DNA of 64,000 bases. It comes from Solobacterium sp. GTDB taxonomy: Bacteria; Bacillota_I; Bacilli_A; Erysipelotrichales; Erysipelotrichaceae. Both the position numbers and the translations under genes were made by a program. Each line of letters starts with the position of its first letter. Within the stretch, counting starts at the first letter, position 1. The notes beneath the pieces were generated by a model. The model did not search any database. It was not told the origin of the DNA and saw nothing but the letters and a program-made list of their open reading frames with translations. Positions 30,936 to 44,155 of the stretch are shown here, piece by piece. The stretch lies in assembly GCA_017512725.1 (NCBI GenBank), contig JAFWEW010000032.1, forward strand, positions 62,001 through 126,000, written 5' to 3'.

Positions 30936-31952
30936 TCAGAGTAATGCCTCAAGCTGTTTCCGTATCGGTTCTTTTACCGATTCCTCACAGAAAGCCGCAT
31001 TGATCGAATTCAAATTCATACGGATCAGATCTTTTTCTGTGAATCCCATTTCAGTAATGCAGTGTTCATATTCGGAATCCAGCGTAACGCCCGCAAGATA
31101 CTGATTATCCGTATTGATCGTAACCTTCAGACCCATTTCCATCATGTTTTTGGCCGGATGTTTTTCATAGGTCGGTTCGGTCTGACACTGGATGTTGGAG
31201 GTCGGGCAGATTTCAAATGCCACATCAGTTTCGGCAATGCGTCTGACCAGATGCGGGTCAAAGTAAACATGATGACCGTGTCCGATTCTTTTTGCACCAA
31301 AGGTAAACACAGCGGTTTCTACCGTTTCCGGTCCGGGGGAATCTCCGGCGTGACAGGTAGCCGGTATCTGCTGTTTTCGGATTTCTTCGAAAAGACCGGC
31401 AAAATTCTCCAGCGGAACAATACCTTCCGCTCCGGCAAGATCAATCCCGACCAGTCCCTGACCGAGATACTTTTTTGCCGCTTTGATGGTCTCGAGATTC
31501 GCATCCCAGTTGATCTGTTCACTTCCGTAAGACATCATGCAGGCCAGGATCCCAAGCCTGATGGGATACTGTTCCATACAGCGCTTTGCCCCGGCAATGA
31601 CCGCTTCAATCGAGGTTTCCATCGTCAGTTCTCCGGAGATATGCTGCTGCGGGGCAAACCGGATCTCGGCATAGGCAACGCCTTCACGGCAGAGATCTTC
31701 ACCGAGTTCAAACGTCATCCGCTCCAGCGCTTCCCATGTCTGCATGACCCGGCAGGGCAGATCAAACATTTTCAGATATTCATTCACGCTTCCGCAGTTG
31801 GCACGGTGCCGGGTCAGCTCACGGTATTCTTCTACGGTTGGCACTTCGGTTTCAATGCCGTATTTCTTTGCCAGTTCATACATGGTTTCCGGACGGAAAC
31901 TTCCATCCAGATGGTTGTGAAGATCGATCTTCGGAAAATCAAAGCGTGTCAT
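30936..31952 (-). CDS. add: Adenosine deaminase, HAGD variant
   Basis: The 338-residue amidohydrolase begins at MTRFDFPK, with AAGAAGGAAC upstream, and overlaps the preceding deaminase gene by 14 bases. Zinc and catalytic motifs are KIDLHNHLDGSF, CHAGDSPGPETV, KRIGHGHHVYFDP, ICPTSNIQC and TINTDNQYLAG. In classic adenosine deaminases the third motif reads HAGE, with Glu as proton donor; here it is Asp. TDN in place of TDD is common in Gram-positive members. The enzyme probably deaminates adenosine or a related purine nucleoside to the inosine form. It is the second gene of a two-gene unit. Confidence 0.85.
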   Translation of the reverse strand: MTRFDFPKIDLHNHLDGSFRPETMYELAKKYGIETEVPTVEEYRELTRHRANCGSVNEYLKMFDLPCRVMQTWEALERMTFELGEDLCREGVAYAEIRFAPQQHISGELTMETSIEAVIAGAKRCMEQYPIRLGILACMMSYGSEQINWDANLETIKAAKKYLGQGLVGIDLAGAEGIVPLENFAGLFEEIRKQQIPATCHAGDSPGPETVETAVFTFGAKRIGHGHHVYFDPHLVRRIAETDVAFEICPTSNIQCQTEPTYEKHPAKNMMEMGLKVTINTDNQYLAGVTLDSEYEHCITEMGFTEKDLIRMNLNSINAAFCEESVKEPIRKQLEALL

Positions 31953-32982
31953 ATTCAGTTCCTTCTTTCTGCTGATAATTTTCAAGATATTGATTCAGCC
32001 GGCCGGTGAGCCACTGCCGGGTTTCTTCCTCACAGAAGGCTGCCCGGATCGCATTCCTGGTACACTGCAGCAGGGTTTCATCCGATACCCCGAGCATTTT
32101 CAGCTGTGCATGCTCATTCATGAGATTGGTACGGGCAAACATCATATTGTCGGAGTTCAGTGTGACATTGGCTCCTTTTTCCAGCAGCGTCAGAACGGCG
32201 TGTTCGGCATAGTTCATGGTCCGCTTGACGTTGGAGGTTACACAGACTTCCAGCGGGATCTGTGTTTCCAGAACCCGGGAAAGATATTCTTCCTTCTGCA
32301 AACAGTTGACGCCATGGCCGATCCGCCATGCGCCCATATCCAGTGCATCCATCACATGTTCGCCAATGCCCATTTCTCCGGCATGCATCGTATAGGGAAT
32401 GCCAAGGTCCCGGGCTTCTTGGAACAGGGGGGCATAGGCCCGGAAATCACCGTTATTCTCAAATCCGGCAAGGTCGATCCCGACGGCCCCTTTGCCAAGC
32501 ATCTGCTTTGTGACATGGATCGTCTCCAGATTTTCTTCCCAGTTGGAATAAGCATCTTCTCCTTTATGCATCATGCAGTTGATGATGCCGATCCGGATTC
32601 CCGGACAGTCGTTCATTGCCTGTTGTGCACCGGCAATGACAGCCTGCAGGGCTTCCAGCTGGGTAAGGCCGTTTTTTTGATGCTGCTGGGAGGCAAAGCG
32701 GATCTCCGCATACCAGATACCCTGATCGTGAAGCCTTCGGACAAGATCGTAGGTTGCTTCGGATAAGTCTTCCTGACACTGCAGGATATTGCAGGTCAGA
32801 TCAAACTTGGTAATACTGACGTTATGCGGTTTGGCATTATTCGCAAACAGCAGATTGTAGTAATCCACAAAGGACGTTCCGGCCGGAATGACACCCCGCA
32901 TCAATGATTTTTCATATGCCCATTTCAGATTGAAAGAGCCATCCAGATGAAGATGAAGTTCAATTCTTGCGCTGTTCAGCAT
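31939..32982 (-). CDS. add: Adenosine deaminase, HAGE form
   Basis: The 347-residue amidohydrolase shows ARIELHLHLDGSFNLKWAYEKS, YAEIRFASQQH, TMHAGEMGIGEHV (canonical catalytic Glu), WRIGHGVNCL, VCVTSNVKRT and LNSDNMMFARTN. It is clearly related to the neighbouring deaminase but diverged, so the pair looks like an old tandem duplication. AGGAGA lies 5 bases before the ATG. The unit is transcribed away from the two nucleoside hydrolase genes. Confidence 0.88.
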   Translation of the reverse strand: MLNSARIELHLHLDGSFNLKWAYEKSLMRGVIPAGTSFVDYYNLLFANNAKPHNVSITKFDLTCNILQCQEDLSEATYDLVRRLHDQGIWYAEIRFASQQHQKNGLTQLEALQAVIAGAQQAMNDCPGIRIGIINCMMHKGEDAYSNWEENLETIHVTKQMLGKGAVGIDLAGFENNGDFRAYAPLFQEARDLGIPYTMHAGEMGIGEHVMDALDMGAWRIGHGVNCLQKEEYLSRVLETQIPLEVCVTSNVKRTMNYAEHAVLTLLEKGANVTLNSDNMMFARTNLMNEHAQLKMLGVSDETLLQCTRNAIRAAFCEEETRQWLTGRLNQYLENYQQKEGTEYDTL

Positions 32983-33119
32983 AGGTTCTCCTGATTTCTG
33001 TTGGCTTCATTCTATCAAAAAGAGCCGTAGGGATGGAAAACCTTCAGAACAACCGACATATCCTTTGGAACATTCATGTAGAATAATGGTAATACGGATT
33101 TAGAATGGAGGGGTTATCA

Positions 33120-34076
33120 ATGAAAAGGCCATTCATCATTGACTGTGATACCGGTACGGATGATACGATTGCCATTCTTGCGGCACTTGGCTGTGAGGAA
33201 ATGGAAATCGTCGGAATTACTTCGGTTAATGGAAATGTAGCGGAACAACATACATCGCAGAATAATCTGGATCTGATGGAATATCTGGGGCGGGATATCC
33301 CGGTTGCCCACGGTGCCTGGCTGCCGCTCAGCGGACGCCGGGATTCCAATACCGATCCAAAGATCCACGGCAAAACGGGTCTTGGAAATACCGAGCTTCC
33401 GCATGCGGTAAAACTGCAGTTTGATCCAAGGATCGCTGCGACGTTTATCTATGAGGAAGCGAAAAAGCGGAACGGGGAACTGGAACTGCTGGTGACCGGG
33501 CCAATGACCAATATTGCGGCAGCGCTGGCAGAACATGATGATCTGAAAGACTATATCAAACATATTTATTTCATGGGCGGCTCTACCATCGGCGGCAACG
33601 TGAATTCGACAGCCGAGTTTAATATCTGGGCAGATCCGGAAGCCCTTCATGCAGAACTGATGAGCGGTATTCCGACAACCATGGTCGGACTGAACGTTTC
33701 AAATCTTGCCGTTATGGCGGAAACCGAGGAACATCTGATACGGTCTTATGGATCCCGTGAAGGAAATCTTGCGGCAGATCTTCTTCTTTATATGATGGGG
33801 CGCACCAAGTTCGGTGATTACGCTGCCCGCATGCATGATCCTCTGGCACTTGCGGCGGCAATCTTTCCGGAATGCATGGAGTATGAGAACTATTACGGGG
33901 ATGCGGAATGCACCGGCACCTATACCCGCGGACATACCGCGATCGATATCTTCCGTAAGTCTCCCAATGAGCATAATGTGACGGTTGCGACGAAAATCAA
34001 CATCCCGCTGTTTTCGGAATGGCTTTGTGAGCGGATCCGGATCGCGGGTGAGAAGGGTGAGGAACTGCGAAAATGA
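33120..34076 (+). CDS. Inosine/uridine-preferring nucleoside hydrolase, copy 1
   Basis: The 318-residue enzyme hydrolyses ribonucleosides to base and ribose. The calcium-binding N-terminal motif is IIDCDTGTDDTIAILAAL. Other family elements are VNGNVAEQHTSQNNL, LLVTGPMTNIAAAL, YFMGGSTIGGNV and AEFNIWADPEA. The start is the ATG before KRPFIIDC, with GGAGGGG 7 bases upstream; an earlier in-frame ATG at 33105 contains that SD and is rejected. TGGTAATAC at 33087-33095 is a plausible extended -10. It overlaps the second hydrolase gene by ATGA. Confidence 0.92.
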   Translation: MKRPFIIDCDTGTDDTIAILAALGCEEMEIVGITSVNGNVAEQHTSQNNLDLMEYLGRDIPVAHGAWLPLSGRRDSNTDPKIHGKTGLGNTELPHAVKLQFDPRIAATFIYEEAKKRNGELELLVTGPMTNIAAALAEHDDLKDYIKHIYFMGGSTIGGNVNSTAEFNIWADPEALHAELMSGIPTTMVGLNVSNLAVMAETEEHLIRSYGSREGNLAADLLLYMMGRTKFGDYAARMHDPLALAAAIFPECMEYENYYGDAECTGTYTRGHTAIDIFRKSPNEHNVTVATKINIPLFSEWLCERIRIAGEKGEELRK

Positions 34077-35014
34077 GAAAGTTTGTATTTGACTGTGATA
34101 CCGGCACGGATGATGCGATTGCCATCGCAGCGGCACTCGGCAGTGACGATATTGAGATTCTCGGCATTACTTCGGTCAACGGAAATGTCCGGGAAGAGTT
34201 TGTTTCCGAGAATAACCGGAACCTCTGTGAGTATCTTGGCGTAAATGTGCCGGTATGTCATGGGGCGGTCTGGCCGCTTTCCTGCGGGTTCCGCAATGAG
34301 AGTGACATGACGCACGGAAAGACCGGACTTGGTTCGATCGTTCTTCCGGAAGCGAAGAATCTGAAGTTTGATGAGCGGATCGCATCCCGGTTCCTGTATG
34401 AAAAAGCAATGGAATGCGGCGGAGAACTGGAACTGTTTGTGACCGGCCCGATGACCAATATTGCGCTGACGATCATCCAGTACCCGGATTTCAGTGAACA
34501 GATCCGCCATCTCTGGTTCATGGGCGGTTCTGTCTGGGGCGGAAATGTTACTACGACTGCGGAATTCAATATCTGGGCAGATCCGGAAGCGGCACATGTC
34601 GTGTTTTCCAGCGGTATTCCGATGACCATGGTCGGTCTGGATGTCACGCTGAAGGCAATCATGGAAAAAGAAGATGTGGAAGAACTGCGGAAGGAAGATA
34701 CGCCGGCCCGCCGATTAACAGCCGATCTGCTGGATTTCATGTTTGACCGTTACCGCAGAGGCGGAGAAAACGTCATCATGCATGATGCGCTGGCAGTTGC
34801 GGCGGCATTATACCCGGAATGCATGGAATATCAGGATTACTGGATGGACGTTGAAACCCGCGGCGAATATACCCGGGGACATACCTATGCGGATTTCCGC
34901 GGCCGAAGCGGGAAACAGCCGAATGTGAAGGCGGCACTGACGGTCAATGTCGAAATGTTCCGCAAATGGCTTGTCCGCAGTGTTGAGAATTGTGACAGGA
35001 AATATAACGGATGA
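34073..35014 (+). CDS. Inosine/uridine-preferring nucleoside hydrolase, copy 2
   Basis: The 313-residue paralogue of the preceding gene has the same motifs: VFDCDTGTDDAIAIAAAL, SVNGNVREEFVSENNRNL, LFVTGPMTNIALTI, WFMGGSVWGGNVTTTAEFNIWADPEA and VIMHDALAVAAAL. The two copies are collinear over their full lengths and appear roughly half identical by eye. They may differ in base preference. ATGA overlaps join it to the upstream hydrolase and the downstream MATE gene. Confidence 0.92.
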   Translation: MRKFVFDCDTGTDDAIAIAAALGSDDIEILGITSVNGNVREEFVSENNRNLCEYLGVNVPVCHGAVWPLSCGFRNESDMTHGKTGLGSIVLPEAKNLKFDERIASRFLYEKAMECGGELELFVTGPMTNIALTIIQYPDFSEQIRHLWFMGGSVWGGNVTTTAEFNIWADPEAAHVVFSSGIPMTMVGLDVTLKAIMEKEDVEELRKEDTPARRLTADLLDFMFDRYRRGGENVIMHDALAVAAALYPECMEYQDYWMDVETRGEYTRGHTYADFRGRSGKQPNVKAALTVNVEMFRKWLVRSVENCDRKYNG

Positions 35015-36515: not shown

Positions 36516-37646
36516 ATGAAAAAGTTAAGCAAATTTATTCTCGCAATGCTTCTGGGTGTTTCTCTGGCAGCATGCGGCGGCTCCAAACCTGCAGAAGAGC
36601 CGGCAACTACTGATGATGGCAAAGAAACCACAGAGCCCACCACAGAAGCTGCAAGTGATCTGAAGATCGCGTACATCGTAGGTCATCTGGGCGACAAGTC
36701 CTTTGCGGACAGCGGCCAGCGCGGTATTGAAACACTTACCGGCGAAGGGTATGACTGCAAGACGATTGAAGTTGGTGATGATGCTTCCAAGTACAAGGAT
36801 CAGATTAACGATGCAATCGATGCTGGTTACAACCTGATTCTCGCTTCTTCCACCTATTTCGATGTCTGCCATGAACTTTCCGAAGAATATCCGGAAGTCA
36901 AATTCATCATCTTCGATGACAGCAAGTCTCCGGAAGAACTGAACGACAACGAAGCAGTTATCTTCTATGCTCAGAACGAAGGTTCCTACCTTGTTGGATA
37001 CATGGCAGCTGCTATGTCCAAGAACGGTACGGTTGCTGTTAACTATGGTATGGCTAACCCGGTTATCTTCGACTTCGTTACAGGTTATGTAAACGGCGTC
37101 CTGGATTACAATGCTGAAAACGGCACAGACGTTAAGGTTGTTTCCGCTGCTGTCGGCAGCTGGAGCGATCCTGCAACCATGAAGACAATCTGCCTTGACC
37201 AGTTCCGCAACAACAACGCTGATGTATTCTATCAGGTTGCCGGCGGTTCCGGTGATGGTCTCTTCGAGGCTTGCGTTGAAAACGGCTCTTGGGCTATCGG
37301 TGTTGACTCCGACCAGTATCAGGCTTACAAGGATTCCGAGAACCCTGAAAAGGCTGATGTCATCCTCACATCCATGCTGAAGGAAGTTGGAAACTCCTTC
37401 GTTTCCTTCATCCACTCCATCGATAAGGGTGAAGATGTCTGGAAGAAGACAACAACACTTGGTCTTGCTCAGGATTCCGTTGGATATGTAAACAACGATT
37501 ACTTCAAGGCTAACGTTCCGACTGAAGTACAGGATGCGATGGCTCAGGCTGCTGCGGATATCAAGGCTGGTAAGAAGGATGTTAAGTCTTACTTCGATTT
37601 CGCAGACGACAACGAGTTCAACGATTACCTGGCTCAGGCTCAGTAA
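36516..37646 (+). CDS. BMP-family nucleoside-binding lipoprotein
   Basis: The 376-residue lipoprotein has lipobox LAAC (signal MKKLSKFILAMLLGVSLAAC), a Glu/Thr linker (about 22-46) and a Bmp/Med domain. That domain carries KIAYIVGHLGDKSFADSGQRGIETL, IFYAQNEGSYLVGYMAAAMS, GSWSDPATMKTICLDQF and AIGVDSDQYQAY. It is the substrate-binding protein for the ABC importer encoded next, predicted to bind purine nucleosides. Codon use shifts towards GCT, GGT and AAC compared with neighbouring genes, as expected of a highly expressed protein. AGGAGAG precedes the ATG. An attenuator-like hairpin separates it from the ATPase gene. Confidence 0.92.
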   Translation: MKKLSKFILAMLLGVSLAACGGSKPAEEPATTDDGKETTEPTTEAASDLKIAYIVGHLGDKSFADSGQRGIETLTGEGYDCKTIEVGDDASKYKDQINDAIDAGYNLILASSTYFDVCHELSEEYPEVKFIIFDDSKSPEELNDNEAVIFYAQNEGSYLVGYMAAAMSKNGTVAVNYGMANPVIFDFVTGYVNGVLDYNAENGTDVKVVSAAVGSWSDPATMKTICLDQFRNNNADVFYQVAGGSGDGLFEACVENGSWAIGVDSDQYQAYKDSENPEKADVILTSMLKEVGNSFVSFIHSIDKGEDVWKKTTTLGLAQDSVGYVNNDYFKANVPTEVQDAMAQAAADIKAGKKDVKSYFDFADDNEFNDYLAQAQ

Positions 37647-37675
37647 TAGCTGAACCAATCAGATTTACTGCAAGA

Positions 37676-37705
37676 GAAGCTGGTATTTGCCGCCAGCTTC
37701 TTTTC
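37676..37705 (+). terminator. Terminator or attenuator after the BMP gene
   Basis: GAAGCTGG (37676-37683) and CCAGCTTC (37693-37700) form a stable stem followed by TTTTCTTG. It would keep the binding protein transcript more abundant than the ABC genes. Confidence 0.8.
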
Positions 37706-37762
37706 TTGTTTTCCGCTCTGGAAAAATTCGTGATTTCTTGTTCCTGCCTATCGGAAATGAAG

Positions 37763-37768
37763 TAAAAT
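37763..37768 (+). promoter_or_regulatory. Probable -10 box for the nucleoside ABC leader
   Basis: TAAAAT is the best -10 in the gap. Candidate -35 boxes are TTGTTC at 37738-37743 (19-bp spacer) or TTCCTG at 37741-37746 (16-bp spacer), neither ideal. Confidence 0.45.
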
Positions 37769-37774
37769 AGATTC

Positions 37775-37930
37775 AGAATTTAGTGGTTTTAAAAACCAGT
37801 TTTTCATCCGTAAAACAACCGTCTGACGAACGGGGATCGCCCGCGATTGTTTCTTAATGAATGATCCGGGAAGCGCTTACAGTACAGATACTCAGCGTAC
37901 GTCACCTTGTAGTAAGGGGGGATAACCACA
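37775..37930 (+). promoter_or_regulatory. Structured 5' leader with cre-like site before the nucleoside ABC genes
   Basis: About 155 bases lie between the probable transcription start and the GTG at 37931. Pairings visible by eye are TGGTTT/AAACCA near 37784-37798, AAACAA/TTGTTT enclosing smaller hairpins (about 37813-37852), and CCTT/AAGG placing part of the SD (37914-37920) in a hairpin. GTGGTT at 37783-37788 could alternatively pair with AACCAC at 37924-37929, next to the start codon. GGGAAGCGCTTACA at 37868-37881 matches the CcpA cre consensus at 12 of 14 positions. I do not recognise a known riboswitch class. Confidence 0.45.
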
Positions 37931-39481
37931 GTGGCAGAAGAAGTACTGCGAATGCAAGGGATCACCAAAATTTATCCGAACGGCTTCATGGCCAACAAGG
38001 ATATTACTTTTGGAATCGGTGCCAACGAAATTCACGCCCTTGTCGGTGAAAACGGTGCCGGAAAAACAACCCTGATGAAGATTCTTTTTGGTATGGAGGA
38101 TTGCCAGGAAGGAAAGATCTTCATCAATGGGAATGAAGTAAAAATTGCAAATCCTCTGGACGCAATCGCAAAAGGTGTCGGCATGGTTCACCAGCACTTT
38201 ATGTTATTGCCGTCTCTGACTGTAGCGGAAAATGTCGTTTTAGGCGTTGAACCAATGAAGAACGGTCTCTTTGATTTTAATACGGCGGTCAAAAACACCC
38301 AGGAGATCGCGGACAAGTACAATTTCAAAGTGGATGCGACCGCAAAGGTAAGCACGCTGTCTGTCGGACAGATGCAGAAGGTTGAGATTCTGAAGGCTCT
38401 GATCAAAGGCGCCAAGATCCTCATTCTCGATGAGCCTACGGCGGTTCTTACTCCGCAGGAGACAGAGGAACTGTTTGAACAGCTGTTCAATCTCCGTGAT
38501 TCCGGCGTATCGGTTATCTTTATTTCCCATAAGCTGGAAGAAGTTATGCGGATCTGCTCGAAGGTTACCGTACTGCGCCGCGGCGAATGCATGGGTACCT
38601 ATGATACTGCGGATCTGGATGAATCCAAGATTTCCAGACTCATGGTCGGCCGTGATGTCATTCTCAAGATTGAAAAAGAAGATCCGAAACCGGCAGAACC
38701 GATTCTTGAAATCAAGAATCTACGCCGTTTCAACTCCTTTGGTAAGGCAGTCATTGACGGCATCACATTTACGGTTCGTTCCGGTGAAGTGGTCGGTATT
38801 GCCGGTGTTGAAGGAAACGGGCAGACCGAACTTTCTGAAGTTCTTGCCGGACTCGCACCGTTTGCGGAAGGCGATGTCGTGCTCAACGGCAAATCGATCC
38901 GCGGCATGTCCGTACGTCAGATCCGGGATGCCGGCATGGCATACATCGCAGAAGACCGTATGGTGGAAGGCTGCTCGGGTGAGATGTCCATTGAAATGAA
39001 TATCATGGCGGACCGTTTTACCAAGAGTGATTATAAGAACGGACTGTTTATCAATTCCAAGAAGATGCGGGAAGAAACCGAACGGCTCATTGATGAGTTT
39101 GAGATCCTCTGTGACAATGCGGATCAGCCGGTACGCATGCTTTCCGGCGGAAACATCCAGAAAGTCGTTGTTGCCCGTGAGTTTACGTCCGGTGCGAACT
39201 TTATTCTGGCAAACCAGCCGACCCGAGGCATTGACGTCGGTACGGCAGAAATGATCCGTAAGACCATTGTCCGCAAATCCCGTGAAGAGGGGACCTGTAC
39301 GGTTCTGATCTCCGCAGACCTCAATGAGGTACTGGAATGTTCGGACCGTCTGCTGGTCATGCGCAAAGGCAAAGTGGTTGCCGCATTCCCGAAAGCGAAT
39401 GAAGTTTCAGAAGGCGAGCTCGGTGAGTACATGCTCGGACTTAAGACAATGACTCCCGAACAGATGGAGGGTTTGTTATGA
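37931..39481 (+). CDS. Nucleoside ABC transporter, ATP-binding protein
   Basis: The 516-residue double ABC ATPase of the sugar/nucleoside (RbsA/YufO) type has two nucleotide-binding domains. The first has Walker A GENGAGKTTLMK, signature LSVGQMQKVEIL and Walker B ILILDEPTAVL. The second has the degenerate Walker A GVEGNGQTELSE, signature LSGGNIQKVVVAREF and NQPTRGIDVG. It energises uptake of nucleosides bound by the upstream BMP lipoprotein. The start is GTG with AAGGGGGG upstream, and it overlaps the first permease gene by ATGA. Confidence 0.93.
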   Translation: MAEEVLRMQGITKIYPNGFMANKDITFGIGANEIHALVGENGAGKTTLMKILFGMEDCQEGKIFINGNEVKIANPLDAIAKGVGMVHQHFMLLPSLTVAENVVLGVEPMKNGLFDFNTAVKNTQEIADKYNFKVDATAKVSTLSVGQMQKVEILKALIKGAKILILDEPTAVLTPQETEELFEQLFNLRDSGVSVIFISHKLEEVMRICSKVTVLRRGECMGTYDTADLDESKISRLMVGRDVILKIEKEDPKPAEPILEIKNLRRFNSFGKAVIDGITFTVRSGEVVGIAGVEGNGQTELSEVLAGLAPFAEGDVVLNGKSIRGMSVRQIRDAGMAYIAEDRMVEGCSGEMSIEMNIMADRFTKSDYKNGLFINSKKMREETERLIDEFEILCDNADQPVRMLSGGNIQKVVVAREFTSGANFILANQPTRGIDVGTAEMIRKTIVRKSREEGTCTVLISADLNEVLECSDRLLVMRKGKVVAAFPKANEVSEGELGEYMLGLKTMTPEQMEGLL

Positions 39482-40641
39482 GTGAAGTAAAACAGACAAC
39501 TGAGGCTGTAAAAGAAAAGCCTCAAATGGATCCCCGCCGCTCCGGAGTAATGCAGAGAACCCAGCGTATTGAAGCGATGATGGAAGTCGTCCGTATCATT
39601 GCCGGTATGGCGATCGCATATCTCGTCGCGCTGCTGATTCTCATTGCCATCTCCGATGATCCTCTGTTTATCGTCAAACAGTTTATTCTGGGACCGTTCT
39701 CTTCTCCCAGACGTATCGGTTCCATCATCAACCTTGCCGTACCGTTCATGCTGTGCGGTCTGTCGATGTGCTTCATGTATGCCGTCAACAAGTTCAACCT
39801 GATCGGTGAAAGTATCTTCATGCTTGCCGGCTGTATCGTTACCTGGCTTGGCCTTGCAATCGGCAATTCTCTGCCGATGGCCGTTATGGTTCCGCTGATG
39901 CTGATCGTCGGCGCAATCGTCGGTGCGATTCTGTCCTTTATCCCGGCAATCATGGACCGGAAGCTGAACGCCAACGTCGTTGTCGTTTCCCTCATGCTCA
40001 ATGCCGTGATTGCCCAGCTGGCGATTTATATCCTGCGTTACTTCATGCGGGATCCCGGCATCTCCTTTATCGGATCCTATGAAACTCCGGATTCCATGCA
40101 GCTTCCGACGTTATTTGGAAAAATGAAAGTTGGCTCCGGCATTATCATCGCAGTGATCCTCGTTATTGTGATTTCCATCCTGTTCTATAAGACAGCGTTT
40201 GGATGGAAGATGCGTCTGGTTGGTTCCAACCCGCGCTTCGCAACGGCAGTCGGTCTCTCCACGCTCGGCATTTCCTTCGCAGCACAGCTGGCAGGCGGCG
40301 CGCTTGCCGGTGTTGCAGGCGCAACCGAGATCATGAACAGCTACAAGCGGTTCCAGTGGACCGCTTCCACCGGACACGGATTCGACGGTCTCCTTGTTGC
40401 CGTATTGGCAAAGCGTAACCCGATTCTGGTTCCGATCGGTGCACTGTTCCTCGCGTATGTCCGGATCGGTGCAGACGTTGTAAATACATCCGGTGATATC
40501 CCGAACGAGTTCATTTCGGTTATCCAGGGTATTATCATTCTTCTCGTTGCGGCGGAATCCTTCCTGTCCGGCTTCAAGAACAAACTCATTTTCCGGTCTG
40601 TACAGGCTGAAAAAGCAGCTGCACAGAAGGATACCAAATAG
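39478..40641 (+). CDS. Nucleoside ABC transporter permease 1 (YufP-like)
   Basis: The 387-residue BPD_transp_2 permease has a charged cytosolic N-terminal tail of about 40 residues and about nine to ten transmembrane helices. The coupling segment is FGWKMRLVGSNPRFATAVGLSTLGISFAAQLAGGALAGVAGATEIM, with the EAA-like GSNPxxA pattern of this permease class. It forms a heterodimer with the next permease. The ATGA overlap with the ATPase gene shows tight coupling; the second permease gene follows after 11 bases. Confidence 0.92.
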   Translation: MSEVKQTTEAVKEKPQMDPRRSGVMQRTQRIEAMMEVVRIIAGMAIAYLVALLILIAISDDPLFIVKQFILGPFSSPRRIGSIINLAVPFMLCGLSMCFMYAVNKFNLIGESIFMLAGCIVTWLGLAIGNSLPMAVMVPLMLIVGAIVGAILSFIPAIMDRKLNANVVVVSLMLNAVIAQLAIYILRYFMRDPGISFIGSYETPDSMQLPTLFGKMKVGSGIIIAVILVIVISILFYKTAFGWKMRLVGSNPRFATAVGLSTLGISFAAQLAGGALAGVAGATEIMNSYKRFQWTASTGHGFDGLLVAVLAKRNPILVPIGALFLAYVRIGADVVNTSGDIPNEFISVIQGIIILLVAAESFLSGFKNKLIFRSVQAEKAAAQKDTK

Positions 40642-40652
40642 GAGGTTACTTT

Positions 40653-41576
40653 ATGTCAATTGATATTGTTGCGTTTATAGCGGATGCGATCAAGATGGCA
40701 ACACCTCTTGTATTTGCGGCTCTGGCAGCTCTGATGACACGTCATGCCGGCATGTTCAACATGGGTGTTGAAGGTATGATTCTCTGCTCCGCACTCGGCG
40801 CTGTTGCCGGTGCTCATTATCTTGGAAGTGTCTGGGCAGGTCTGCTCTGCGGAATCCTGACCGGCGTTCTTACCGGATTCATCATCGCGTTTGCCCATCT
40901 GACCGGCAAAACCGATCTGTATCTGACCTGTATTGCGTTCAACCTGGCGGCCACCGGCGGTACCGTGTTTGTCATGTACCTGCTCACTGGTGAGAAGTCC
41001 ACGACTTCCGGTGCGTTCCGTTCCTATCAGATTCCAAACATCAATATTCCGATTATCAAGGATATCCCGATTCTCGGAAGAATCATTTCCGGGCAGAGTC
41101 TCCTGACCTATGTCGCAGTATTCTGTGTCTGGTTCGTCTGGTTCCTGCTCAAGCGTACCCGCGTCGGTCTGCGGATCCGTTCGGTCGGTGAAAATCCGAA
41201 AGCGGCAGAATCCGTAGGAATCAGCGTTACCCAGATCGGCTATATTGCGTTCCTGTTCTGCGGTCTCTTTGCCGGCCTTTCCGGAACCTTCCTCTCCATG
41301 AGCTGGGTTACCTTCTTCATGAAGAACATGGTTAACGGCCGAGGCTATATCGGTCTCTCTGCTCAGAACATGGCAAACGGAAGCCCGGTTGGTTCCGCAC
41401 TTGTTTCACTCCTGTTTGGTGCGACGACTTCGATTGCTACGACCATGAAGTCCCAGTCGAATTTCCCGACGGAATTCCTGGAAATGGTTCCGTATCTCGC
41501 GACCATTCTTGCGATCATCTTTACAAGCATTTACAAGATCAACAAGAAGCGCAGACTCGAACAGGGCATCAAATAA
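40653..41576 (+). CDS. Nucleoside ABC transporter permease 2 (YufQ-like)
   Basis: The 307-residue BPD_transp_2 permease has about eight transmembrane helices. Family signatures include VFAALAALMTRHAGMFNMGVEGMILCSALGAV and the coupling motif GLRIRSVGENPKAAESVGISVTQIGYIAFLFCGLFAGLSGTFLS. It pairs with the preceding permease. AGGAGG lies before the ATG. A hairpin follows, separating it from the phosphorylase gene. Confidence 0.92.
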   Translation: MSIDIVAFIADAIKMATPLVFAALAALMTRHAGMFNMGVEGMILCSALGAVAGAHYLGSVWAGLLCGILTGVLTGFIIAFAHLTGKTDLYLTCIAFNLAATGGTVFVMYLLTGEKSTTSGAFRSYQIPNINIPIIKDIPILGRIISGQSLLTYVAVFCVWFVWFLLKRTRVGLRIRSVGENPKAAESVGISVTQIGYIAFLFCGLFAGLSGTFLSMSWVTFFMKNMVNGRGYIGLSAQNMANGSPVGSALVSLLFGATTSIATTMKSQSNFPTEFLEMVPYLATILAIIFTSIYKINKKRRLEQGIK

Positions 41577-41646: not shown

Positions 41647-42375
41647 ATGTTACAGCCACATATCCAGCTGGAAACACTGGACGCAAAAGCAGCGATCCTG
41701 CCAGGGGATCCGGCCCGTCTGGACCGCATCGCAAAGGAACTGAGTGATGTCCGGGAACTGGCCTACAACCGGGAATTCCGGAGTCTGGAAGGTATTTATA
41801 AAGGAATGAAAGTGGTTGCCTGTTCGACCGGCATCGGAGGAAGCTCTGCTTCGATTGCGATCGAGGAACTGCATAATCTCGGAGTCACCTCCATGATCCG
41901 CATCGGCTCCTGCGGAGCCCTGCAGAAAGGGATCGGGCTGGGGGATCTTGTGTTTGCCTGCGGAGCCGTACGCGATGAAGGCACCTCCAAAGCCTATGCG
42001 GATATCCGTTTCCCGGCCGTACCGGATACGGACCTTTTAAACGCCTGTATTGCGTATGCCAGAAACGAGAACTGGAAGTACCATACCGGGATCGTACACA
42101 GCCACGAAAGCTTCTATATCGATACCAATGCGGAAGAGGAAGCCTACTGGTCAAAACTTGGCGTACTGGGTGCAGATATGGAAACTGCCGCATTGTTTAC
42201 CGTCGGCCGCATTCGCGGGATCCGTACCGCTTCCATCCTGAACAATGTCGTTGTTTACGGAAGTGATACGTCCGAGTCGATCGGAAGCTATGCGGATGGT
42301 GCATCTTTGACAGCCGAAGGGGAACGCCGGGAAATCGTAACGGCGCTGGAAGCGCTGAAGGCGGTAACAGCGTAA
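41647..42375 (+). CDS. Nucleoside phosphorylase (uridine phosphorylase-like)
   Basis: The 242-residue enzyme of the PNP_UDP_1 family has AILPGDPARLDRIA (phosphate loop), VVACSTGIGGSSASIAIEELHNLGVTSMIRIGSCGALQ and GADMETAALFTVGRIRGIRTASI (ribose-binding DMET). It cleaves imported nucleosides with phosphate. The start segment PHIQLETLDAKAAILPGDPARLDRIAK resembles uridine phosphorylases, but the purine-rich context leaves specificity open. AAGGAG lies 8 bases before the ATG, and adenine deaminase follows after one base. Confidence 0.9.
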   Translation: MLQPHIQLETLDAKAAILPGDPARLDRIAKELSDVRELAYNREFRSLEGIYKGMKVVACSTGIGGSSASIAIEELHNLGVTSMIRIGSCGALQKGIGLGDLVFACGAVRDEGTSKAYADIRFPAVPDTDLLNACIAYARNENWKYHTGIVHSHESFYIDTNAEEEAYWSKLGVLGADMETAALFTVGRIRGIRTASILNNVVVYGSDTSESIGSYADGASLTAEGERREIVTALEALKAVTA

Positions 42376-42376
42376 T

Positions 42377-44155
42377 ATGTATCGGATCCAGCCCCGCAGC
42401 AGAGCGGAACTTTCCCTGGCCGCTTCCGGTCAGATCACCTGTGATCTGGTTCTTTTGAACACGCGCATCGTCAATGTATTTACCGGTGAGATCCTGCCTG
42501 GAGCGATCTATCTCTATGACGGCTTTATCGCCCATGTTGATTATGAACATCCGTATGAGAAAACCCAGCCGGCAGAAACGGAAGAAGATCTCAATGGCAG
42601 ATATGTAACGCCCGGTCTCATTGATGCTCATATGCATATTGAATCGAGCATGCTGAAGCCGCAGGAATTTGCCCGGACGGTTCTTCCGCTCGGTACGACG
42701 ACGGTCATTACCGATCCGCATGAGATTGGCAATGTCATGGGAGTCCGGGGTGTGGAATATATGATCCGGATGTCGGAAGATCTTCCGATGCGCCAGCTGA
42801 TCAATATTCCTAGCTGTGTTCCCGCAGTGCCGGGAAGAGAGTTTTCCGGTGCGGATTTTCTGGCCTATGAGATCAAAACCCTTGCCAGATATGACCGGAC
42901 CCCGGGACTTGCGGAGATCATGGATTACATGGCTGTGATCAACGGGGAAAAACGGATGGGTGATATCCTGGATGCCGCAGAAGATGCTGGTCTTTATCTG
43001 CAGGGGCACTGCCCGAGAGTATCCGGCAATCTGCTGTCGGCCTATCTTGCCGGCGGACCAATGACGGATCATGAAAGTACGCTGGCCGAGGAGGCAATTG
43101 AAAAATACCGGCAGGGGATGTTTGTGGATATCAAGGAATCCTCGTTCGGCCGGAACGTAAAAACACTCACCGAAGCACTTTCCAAGTTCCGTTTCCATGA
43201 CCGGATGTGCTTCTGCACGGATGATATTGAACCGGGTGATCTCATCCATCAGGGACACCTGAACTATGTGGCAATGCGGGCGATTCAGTCCGGAATGGAT
43301 CCGGTGGATGTAATCCGGTGCTGCACCATTAATGTCGCAAGAGAAGCCGGCATCAACCGGCTTGGTGCCATTGCGCCGGGCTATGCGGCGGATCTGAATG
43401 TGTATGATCTTCTGGAAGAATTAAAGCCATACTGTGTTTACTATGCAGGAGACAAAGTTGCTGAGCAGGGAAGACTGACAGTCGAAATCGGGAGATTCCA
43501 GGATCCGATCGAACAGGAAAACACGGTGAACCTGCCGGAGCTTTCCGTGGAACGGCTGCGTCTGACCGCGCCAAAGGCAGAGGGAACGGTTTCGGTGAAT
43601 GTCATTGATTTCGGCAATCCGACCAGCGGCATCTCAAAACAGAAAACGTATGAGTTTCCGGTTCAGGACCACACGCTGATCTTCCCGGATGATACGTTTC
43701 AGTATGCGGCGGTGATCAACCGGCATGGCAAAAACCATGTGAGTCTTGCGGTTGTCCGTCATATCGGTTTGAGAAGAGGTGCGATCGCAACAACGGTATC
43801 CCATGATTCCCATAACATGACGGTTGTTTATCAAAAACCGGAAGATGCACTGCTCGCTGTCGAAGCACTGAAAGAATGCCGCGGCGGGATGTGTGCCGTC
43901 TGTGACGGAACCGTACTGTCGCTGCTGCCGCTGCCCATTGCCGGTCTCATCTATGACGGGACATGCGACGAAGCGGCTCAGGCAGCAGAGGAAATGAAAA
44001 AAGCGGACCGGATGCTCGGTCTGACCGAGATCGAAAATCCGCTGCTGCGCTGTGCCTCCATTGCTCTGCCGGTCGTGCCGGAAATCCGGCTCACGGATCT
44101 TGGTATGGTAGAGGTTGCGACAAAGAAGTTTGTACCGGTGTTTCCGGATCACTGA
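42377..44155 (+). CDS. ade: Adenine deaminase
   Basis: The 592-residue amidohydrolase converts adenine to hypoxanthine. The metal-binding GLIDAHMHIESSMLKPQEFA lies near residues 81-100. DPHEIGNVMGVRGVEYM, GHCPRVSG, MCFCTDDIEPGDLI and the C-terminal AdeC domain (HDSHNMTVVY, GGMCAVCDG) are all present. Length matches AdeC enzymes. The gene begins one base after the phosphorylase stop and lacks an SD of its own, so translation is probably coupled. With the importer and phosphorylase it completes a route from adenosine to hypoxanthine. Its end overlaps the convergent rnhC by 7 bases. Confidence 0.95.
   Translation: MYRIQPRSRAELSLAASGQITCDLVLLNTRIVNVFTGEILPGAIYLYDGFIAHVDYEHPYEKTQPAETEEDLNGRYVTPGLIDAHMHIESSMLKPQEFARTVLPLGTTTVITDPHEIGNVMGVRGVEYMIRMSEDLPMRQLINIPSCVPAVPGREFSGADFLAYEIKTLARYDRTPGLAEIMDYMAVINGEKRMGDILDAAEDAGLYLQGHCPRVSGNLLSAYLAGGPMTDHESTLAEEAIEKYRQGMFVDIKESSFGRNVKTLTEALSKFRFHDRMCFCTDDIEPGDLIHQGHLNYVAMRAIQSGMDPVDVIRCCTINVAREAGINRLGAIAPGYAADLNVYDLLEELKPYCVYYAGDKVAEQGRLTVEIGRFQDPIEQENTVNLPELSVERLRLTAPKAEGTVSVNVIDFGNPTSGISKQKTYEFPVQDHTLIFPDDTFQYAAVINRHGKNHVSLAVVRHIGLRRGAIATTVSHDSHNMTVVYQKPEDALLAVEALKECRGGMCAVCDGTVLSLLPLPIAGLIYDGTCDEAAQAAEEMKKADRMLGLTEIENPLLRCASIALPVVPEIRLTDLGMVEVATKKFVPVFPDH

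Follow-up and report, generated by a model that had tools for sequence, protein, structure and literature searches.

What is the role of the spacer that separates, in a nucleoside transporter cluster of a Solobacterium species, the gene of the binding lipoprotein from that of the ABC ATPase? In the window (the whole 64-kb stretch of DNA analysed, all features of which are given here on the + strand), this spacer holds a leader that lies between a BMP/PnrA-type nucleoside-binding lipoprotein gene (36516-37646; Pfam PF02608, 138 bits) and an ABC ATPase gene with a GTG start at 37931 (37931-39481). A terminator-like hairpin with a 13-pair stem and a T-rich tail follows the BMP gene (37672-37704), the number of terminator-like sites in the region being near that of shuffles. 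The ATPase gene is followed by two permease genes (39478-40641 and 40653-41576), a nucleoside phosphorylase gene (41647-42375) and an adenine deaminase gene (42377-44155). Two nucleoside hydrolases (PF01156) adjoin the transporter genes, and two adenosine-deaminase-like genes, named by reading of their translations, are found nearby (30936-32982 and 33105-35014). An Rfam scan detected no purine riboswitch in this purine-salvage cluster, and the leader DNA has a single match in its own genome, i.e. no second copy.

An earlier note on this DNA, whose quoted sequence letters are all present at the positions given, had described an untranslated leader of about 155 bases behind a promoter-like TAAAAT. 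The -10-like box TGAAGTAAAATA (37758-37769, with TAAAAT at 37763-37768) has no recognisable -35, and a promoter scan reported nothing at this TAAAAT of the window leader because no -35 scores. Taken alone, the whole leader has an ordinary folding energy, at chance level (-39.7 vs -39.6 +/- 3.9 in shuffles; z -0.04), and a terminator search on its + strand returned none. A leader peptide was rejected: the window leader has a frame running from ATG 37857 to TAA 37925, but in the closely related L037 the frame, judged by eye, is a different one. The Rfam covariance-model scan of the leader gave no family at the gathering threshold, the sub-threshold matches being irrelevant, in agreement with the earlier remark that no purine, preQ1, PRPP or other familiar riboswitch matches it.

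It is on comparison with relatives that the -10 box, a cre-like box and a hairpin core exceed chance. Searches yielded 44 loci from a genome collection and, among 70 genomes of the genus, 20 with a strong match; 40 locus entries were compared, five of which (L018-L022) duplicate others, while five entries without a BMP gene, L037 included, were not counted in the spacer comparison. The leader is found in seven related Solobacterium-like species, which excludes a lack of conservation and supports the untranslated leader described earlier, with a predicted transcript start. The spacer between the BMP and ATPase genes measures 262-319 nt in the six leader species that have both genes; in the seventh, G010, the locus is divided between two contigs (L037 and L016). 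The TGAAGTARAATA -10 box is kept in all seven leaders, again with no recognisable -35, and GAAGTANAAT is present in 7/7 leaders vs 0/24 other spacers. Indeed, the other orthologs with both flanking genes (24/24) have neither the -10 box nor the cre-like box, and their spacer is 75-220 nt. Of the 14 orthologous loci with roughly 50% identity (L023-L036), five were inspected by eye and show no such leader upstream; the other nine are covered only by a search with R1, a model built from the leaders. Nor did the R1 search reveal a second locus for the element in the 70 genomes of the genus, in which just one gene is preceded by it.

An ATPase tree with 25 rows has a branch (support 94/98) that separates the seven rows with a leader from all others, a distribution that fits a single gain of the leader. 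As the leader seems to have arisen once, in Erysipelotrichaceae of rumen and gut, sister species can be compared to trace how it was acquired. Since the seven leader sequences include two near-identical pairs, they amount to about five independent ones. Outside the leader species, a hairpin with a T-rich tail follows the BMP gene at L045 (2440-2475) and in the spacers of L041 and L042, with no leader there; it probably serves as an attenuator by which the proportion of binding protein to ATPase is set.

The cre-like site announced in the earlier note was found as well: GGGAAGCGCTTACA (37868-37881) matches the cre consensus TGTAAGCGCTTACA at 12 of 14 positions, and the box is kept in 6/7 leaders, though the pattern with one mismatch allowed is at chance level in the window alone (3 vs 2.5 expected). 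The box of L037 reads GGGAAACGCTTACA, and the L039 leader is devoid of it. Over the 70 genomes of the genus, the strict consensus occurs 275 times (138+137) vs 82 times (47+35) for the reversed pattern, a 3.4-fold excess. Elsewhere in the genome of the window, several cre-like sites precede genes, such as glgC-like and purine-permease-like ones (names by sequence reading). At L082 1501 (contig C11 of the same genome), the cre-like TGTAAGCGCTAACA is flanked by a purine-permease-like gene and a divergently oriented one. HPr kinase is above its cut-off in 7/7 leader genomes, and a CcpA-like protein of 216-259 bits is present in 62/70 genomes of the genus, every match being under the curated family cut-off of 442 bits. 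G001, whose leader has lost the box, is among the eight genomes without this CcpA-like protein; a joint loss of CcpA and cre in G001 is not supported genome-wide, as four other strict cre-like sites remain there. Among genomes at least 90% complete, only G001 and G012 have no CcpA-like match of the 216-259-bit class. We thus consider this leader, which is uncatalogued, to contain a likely catabolite operator.

When the seven leaders were aligned for covariation, a check proposed in the earlier note, a core of three hairpins emerged with an architecture reminiscent of omegaRNA (P1, 6 nt, P2, 2 nt, P3; 37812-37904), which ends 26 nt 5' of the GTG and the helices of which were first proposed by RNAalifold on the seven leaders alone. 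The P1 hairpin (37819-37833) pairs CCGT with ACGG and shows both-side changes in 2/4 pairs with 100% of cells paired. It is joined through the 6-nt linker GGATCG (37834-37839), which reads GGATCG, AGATTG, AGATGG or AGACTT among leaders, to the P2 helix (37840-37870), where CCCG (37840-37843) pairs with CGGG (37867-37870), with both-side changes in 2/4 pairs and 92.9% of cells paired. In the P3 helix (37873-37898), GCGCT (37873-37877) pairs with AGCGT (37894-37898), with both-side changes in 3/4 counted pairs and 100% of cells paired. Altogether, 97.6% of the 84 cells of alignment A6 pair and 7/12 pairs carry compensating both-side changes, a figure that 0/500 shuffles reach, in an alignment joined by hand around the helices and hence biased towards the core structure. 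Slid versions of the helices are at most 64.3% paired in the same alignment. An earlier MAFFT-based count that included the hairpin over the Shine-Dalgarno (SD) sequence gave 87.1% paired and 4/15 pairs with both-side changes.

A geometry scan (P1 span of 13-17 nt, exactly 6 nt, P2, exactly 2 nt, P3), the linker lengths of which were fixed after looking at the leaders, has its optimum at the same place, with different bases, in 6/6 distinct leaders, including the much diverged L039. The geometry is equalled by 15, 24, 17, 5, 17 and 133 of 400 dinucleotide shuffles for the window leader, L037, L048, L070, L039 and L040, respectively, that of L040 being no better than shuffles. With about five independent sequences and an alignment fitted to the structure, the core looks real. 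The pairing-rich leader of the earlier note therefore stands for its covarying helices in relatives, but the conserved P1, P2 and P3 differ from the helices named there, such as a local 5' hairpin TGGTTT/AAACCA (37784-37798), which is present in the window and unconserved in other species.

Could these helices be mere by-products of palindromes in DNA, with proteins binding to the -10, to the cre-like box and to a further dyad (CCGN-N7-NCGG)? The enrichment of cre in the genus, the inverted repeat formed by P1 and the overlap of the cre-like box with P2 and P3 agree with such a reading, this overlap placing operator and helix constraints on the same bases. However, a change of G to A in the box of L037 leaves it both cre and paired, and L039, which has no cre, is still paired and keeps P1, P2 and P3 with new bases; these two leaders suggest that the helices are maintained independently of the operator. 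Moreover, P2 covaries across a loop of widely differing lengths while the spacers keep their lengths of 6 nt and 2 nt. We therefore consider an explanation by DNA sites only to be unlikely.

As to the output of the leader, the earlier note had proposed a start-codon switch in which GTGGTT (37783-37788) pairs locally with AACCA (37794-37798) or distantly with AACCAC (37924-37929) beside the GTG at 37931. This mechanism was rejected, as other species have neither arm in their leaders, except for AACCAC in the near-identical L037. Masking of the SD by CCTT/AAGG is not generally supported. The segment 37901-37921, with GTCA, CCTT and the SD AAGGGGGG, does contain a short hairpin over the SD (CCTT 37905-37908 with AAGG 37914-37917), and CCTT facing the SD is conserved in 5/7 leaders; masking itself is no clearer than in shuffles in 4/5 leaders. 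In this comparison, run without the near-copies L037 and L038, the mean SD accessibility of the window leader, L048, L070, L039 and L040 ranks 116, 46, 16, 176 and 74, respectively, among 200 shuffled leaders, and only L070 (rank 16 of 200) is clearly below them.

These data also bear on a metabolite riboswitch of an undescribed class (nucleoside, nucleobase or a related compound), which would use the three-hairpin core as aptamer and the CCTT/AAGG hairpin as output. A covarying core just 5' of genes for purine uptake and salvage, together with the CCTT kept opposite the SD, would suit it. Against it stand the SD accessibility just described, the lack of a terminator on the + strand of the leader, linker bases more variable than those of typical aptamer cores (L039), and the restriction of the element to a single gene across 70 genomes; we find this proposal quite improbable.

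The architecture of the core raises the question of its origin. In the 70 genomes, R1 recovers only the seven leaders at E <=5e-10; its best non-leader match has an E-value of 0.004 per genome, about 0.3 overall, the E-values of these models being rough. Four of its sub-threshold matches, the best non-leader one included, directly follow tnpB stop codons. The core could thus descend from the omegaRNA of an IS200/IS605-type TnpB element that would have inserted before the ATPase gene and then lost tnpB. Because this family surfaced as a sub-threshold match in the 70-genome scan, later agreement with omegaRNAs is partly circular. The leader-derived pattern AACCG-N9-CGGGGATNGCC occurs at 13 places in 315 genomes, vs one for the reversed control: three leaders, six places right after a TnpB frame, two in coding sequence and two frameless TnpB-type right ends. 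Two omegaRNA-like stretches in G183 (L142 1501 and L144 1501) have TnpB-type right ends and lack a TnpB frame directly 5', and are possibly solo elements.

The same geometry scan was applied to seven omegaRNAs, four of which (L158, L145, L171 and L142) fold throughout, the other three partly or not. The fully folding ones have a P1 of 15-nt span, GGATAG or AGATAG, P2, AA(N), P3 and a GTTCA end, and the geometry of omegaRNAs of this order (P1-6nt-P2-2/3nt-P3) is found in 6/6 distinct leaders, where GGATNG and GTCA correspond to GGATAG and GTTCA. Model R3 was built from 13 omegaRNAs that had been traced by way of the TnpB protein, but it shares 3/13 members with model R2, with which all of them were located, and 3/6 members of R2 were picked by the leader pattern, so that membership of both is partly leader-derived. 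In 36.5 kb, R3 places four leaders on top (18.4, 17.3, 15.2 and 13.2 bits, L070 being the best at 18.4), the next place having 10.0 bits, and in a control set of 84 kb it gives at most 12.4 bits. In the 64-kb window, however, the leader comes only third (15.2 bits) after two unrelated places at 15.3, R3 has no match in the leaders L048, L039 and L040, and R2 with default filters has none in the window.

Furthermore, the GATAGCC of omegaRNA is never kept in the leaders, which have GATCGCC, GATTGCC, GATGGCC, GATCGCT or GACTTCC instead, and P1 is shorter (4-5 bp with a larger loop vs 6 bp with a 3-nt loop). There is no tnpB gene or element end beside the leader. A TnpB-like protein is present in 5/7 leader genomes and was not found in G032 or G068, so that the search gave no TnpB partner common to all leader genomes. 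Descent from omegaRNA, as read from these alignments and models, is thus a serious but unproven lead, which we hold to be a possibility of the minority kind, and the point most worth testing. The scaffold might have been kept as a cis-acting leader, or might still bind a putative TnpB-like protein in trans. The specific claim that an omegaRNA was domesticated as a 5' leader acting in cis on a metabolic operon, nuclease-free and overlapping a catabolite operator, is more doubtful. Neither a published omegaRNA-like 5' leader nor a report on this leader was found in the parts of the open-access literature searched.

Since it concerns origin, descent from omegaRNA is compatible with the explanation that we prefer, namely a lineage-specific internal transcription unit in which a promoter under CcpA-type catabolite control precedes a structured leader with a cis-acting RNA core (probability of roughly 0.58). 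The promoter and the leader of about 155 nt would have arisen in the ancestor of the seven Solobacterium-like species, 3' of the terminator-like hairpin of the BMP gene. The internal promoter at TGAAGTAAAATA would let the ATPase, the permeases, the nucleoside phosphorylase and the adenine deaminase be expressed apart from the binding protein, in a unit of their own that starts putatively near 37775. The cre-like operator, about 95 bp downstream of this presumed start, would most likely be bound by the CcpA-like LacI protein of the genus with HPr(Ser-P), and the bound repressor may form a roadblock to elongation when the carbon supply is good. We propose that the RNA core, instead of switching the start codon, works in cis within the leader to control translation or the stability of the mRNA. 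Even without a link to omegaRNA, the conserved parts of this leader (internal promoter, cre-like box and three hairpins) are now separated from the start-codon switch, which is unconserved; the covarying leader RNA is absent from Rfam.

CcpA catabolite-responsive elements of the roadblock type occur inside transcribed leaders of Firmicutes operons. The leader resembles these by a 14-bp pseudopalindrome 3' of the presumed start in 6/7 leaders and by the presence of HPr kinase, but differs in that the predicted box sits within RNA helices and that the CcpA-like protein scores below the cut-off. Joint control of nucleoside uptake by a leader RNA and CcpA has a precedent in nupR of Bacillus thuringiensis, which according to PMC9430930 is under a purine riboswitch and CcpA; that Rfam riboswitch precedes a regulator gene, whereas none was found in the present leader. 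With the omegaRNA of IS200/IS605-type TnpB elements, as defined in PMC10278001, the leader shares a P1 of 15-nt span, the 6-nt GGATNG linker, P2, AA, P3 and a GTCA-like end; it differs by having no tnpB, no GATAGCC, a shorter P1, its own promoter and a position 5' of a metabolic operon. TldR, as described in PMC13418256, is an exapted nuclease-dead TnpB that, jointly with its guide RNA, acts on DNA targets in trans. Common to both cases is the idea that gene control can recruit a TnpB-derived RNA, but here the search of the leader genomes gave no TnpB partner conserved in all of them. If the resemblance to omegaRNA is real, guide scaffolds of TnpB, besides TnpB proteins, could be exapted for gene control.
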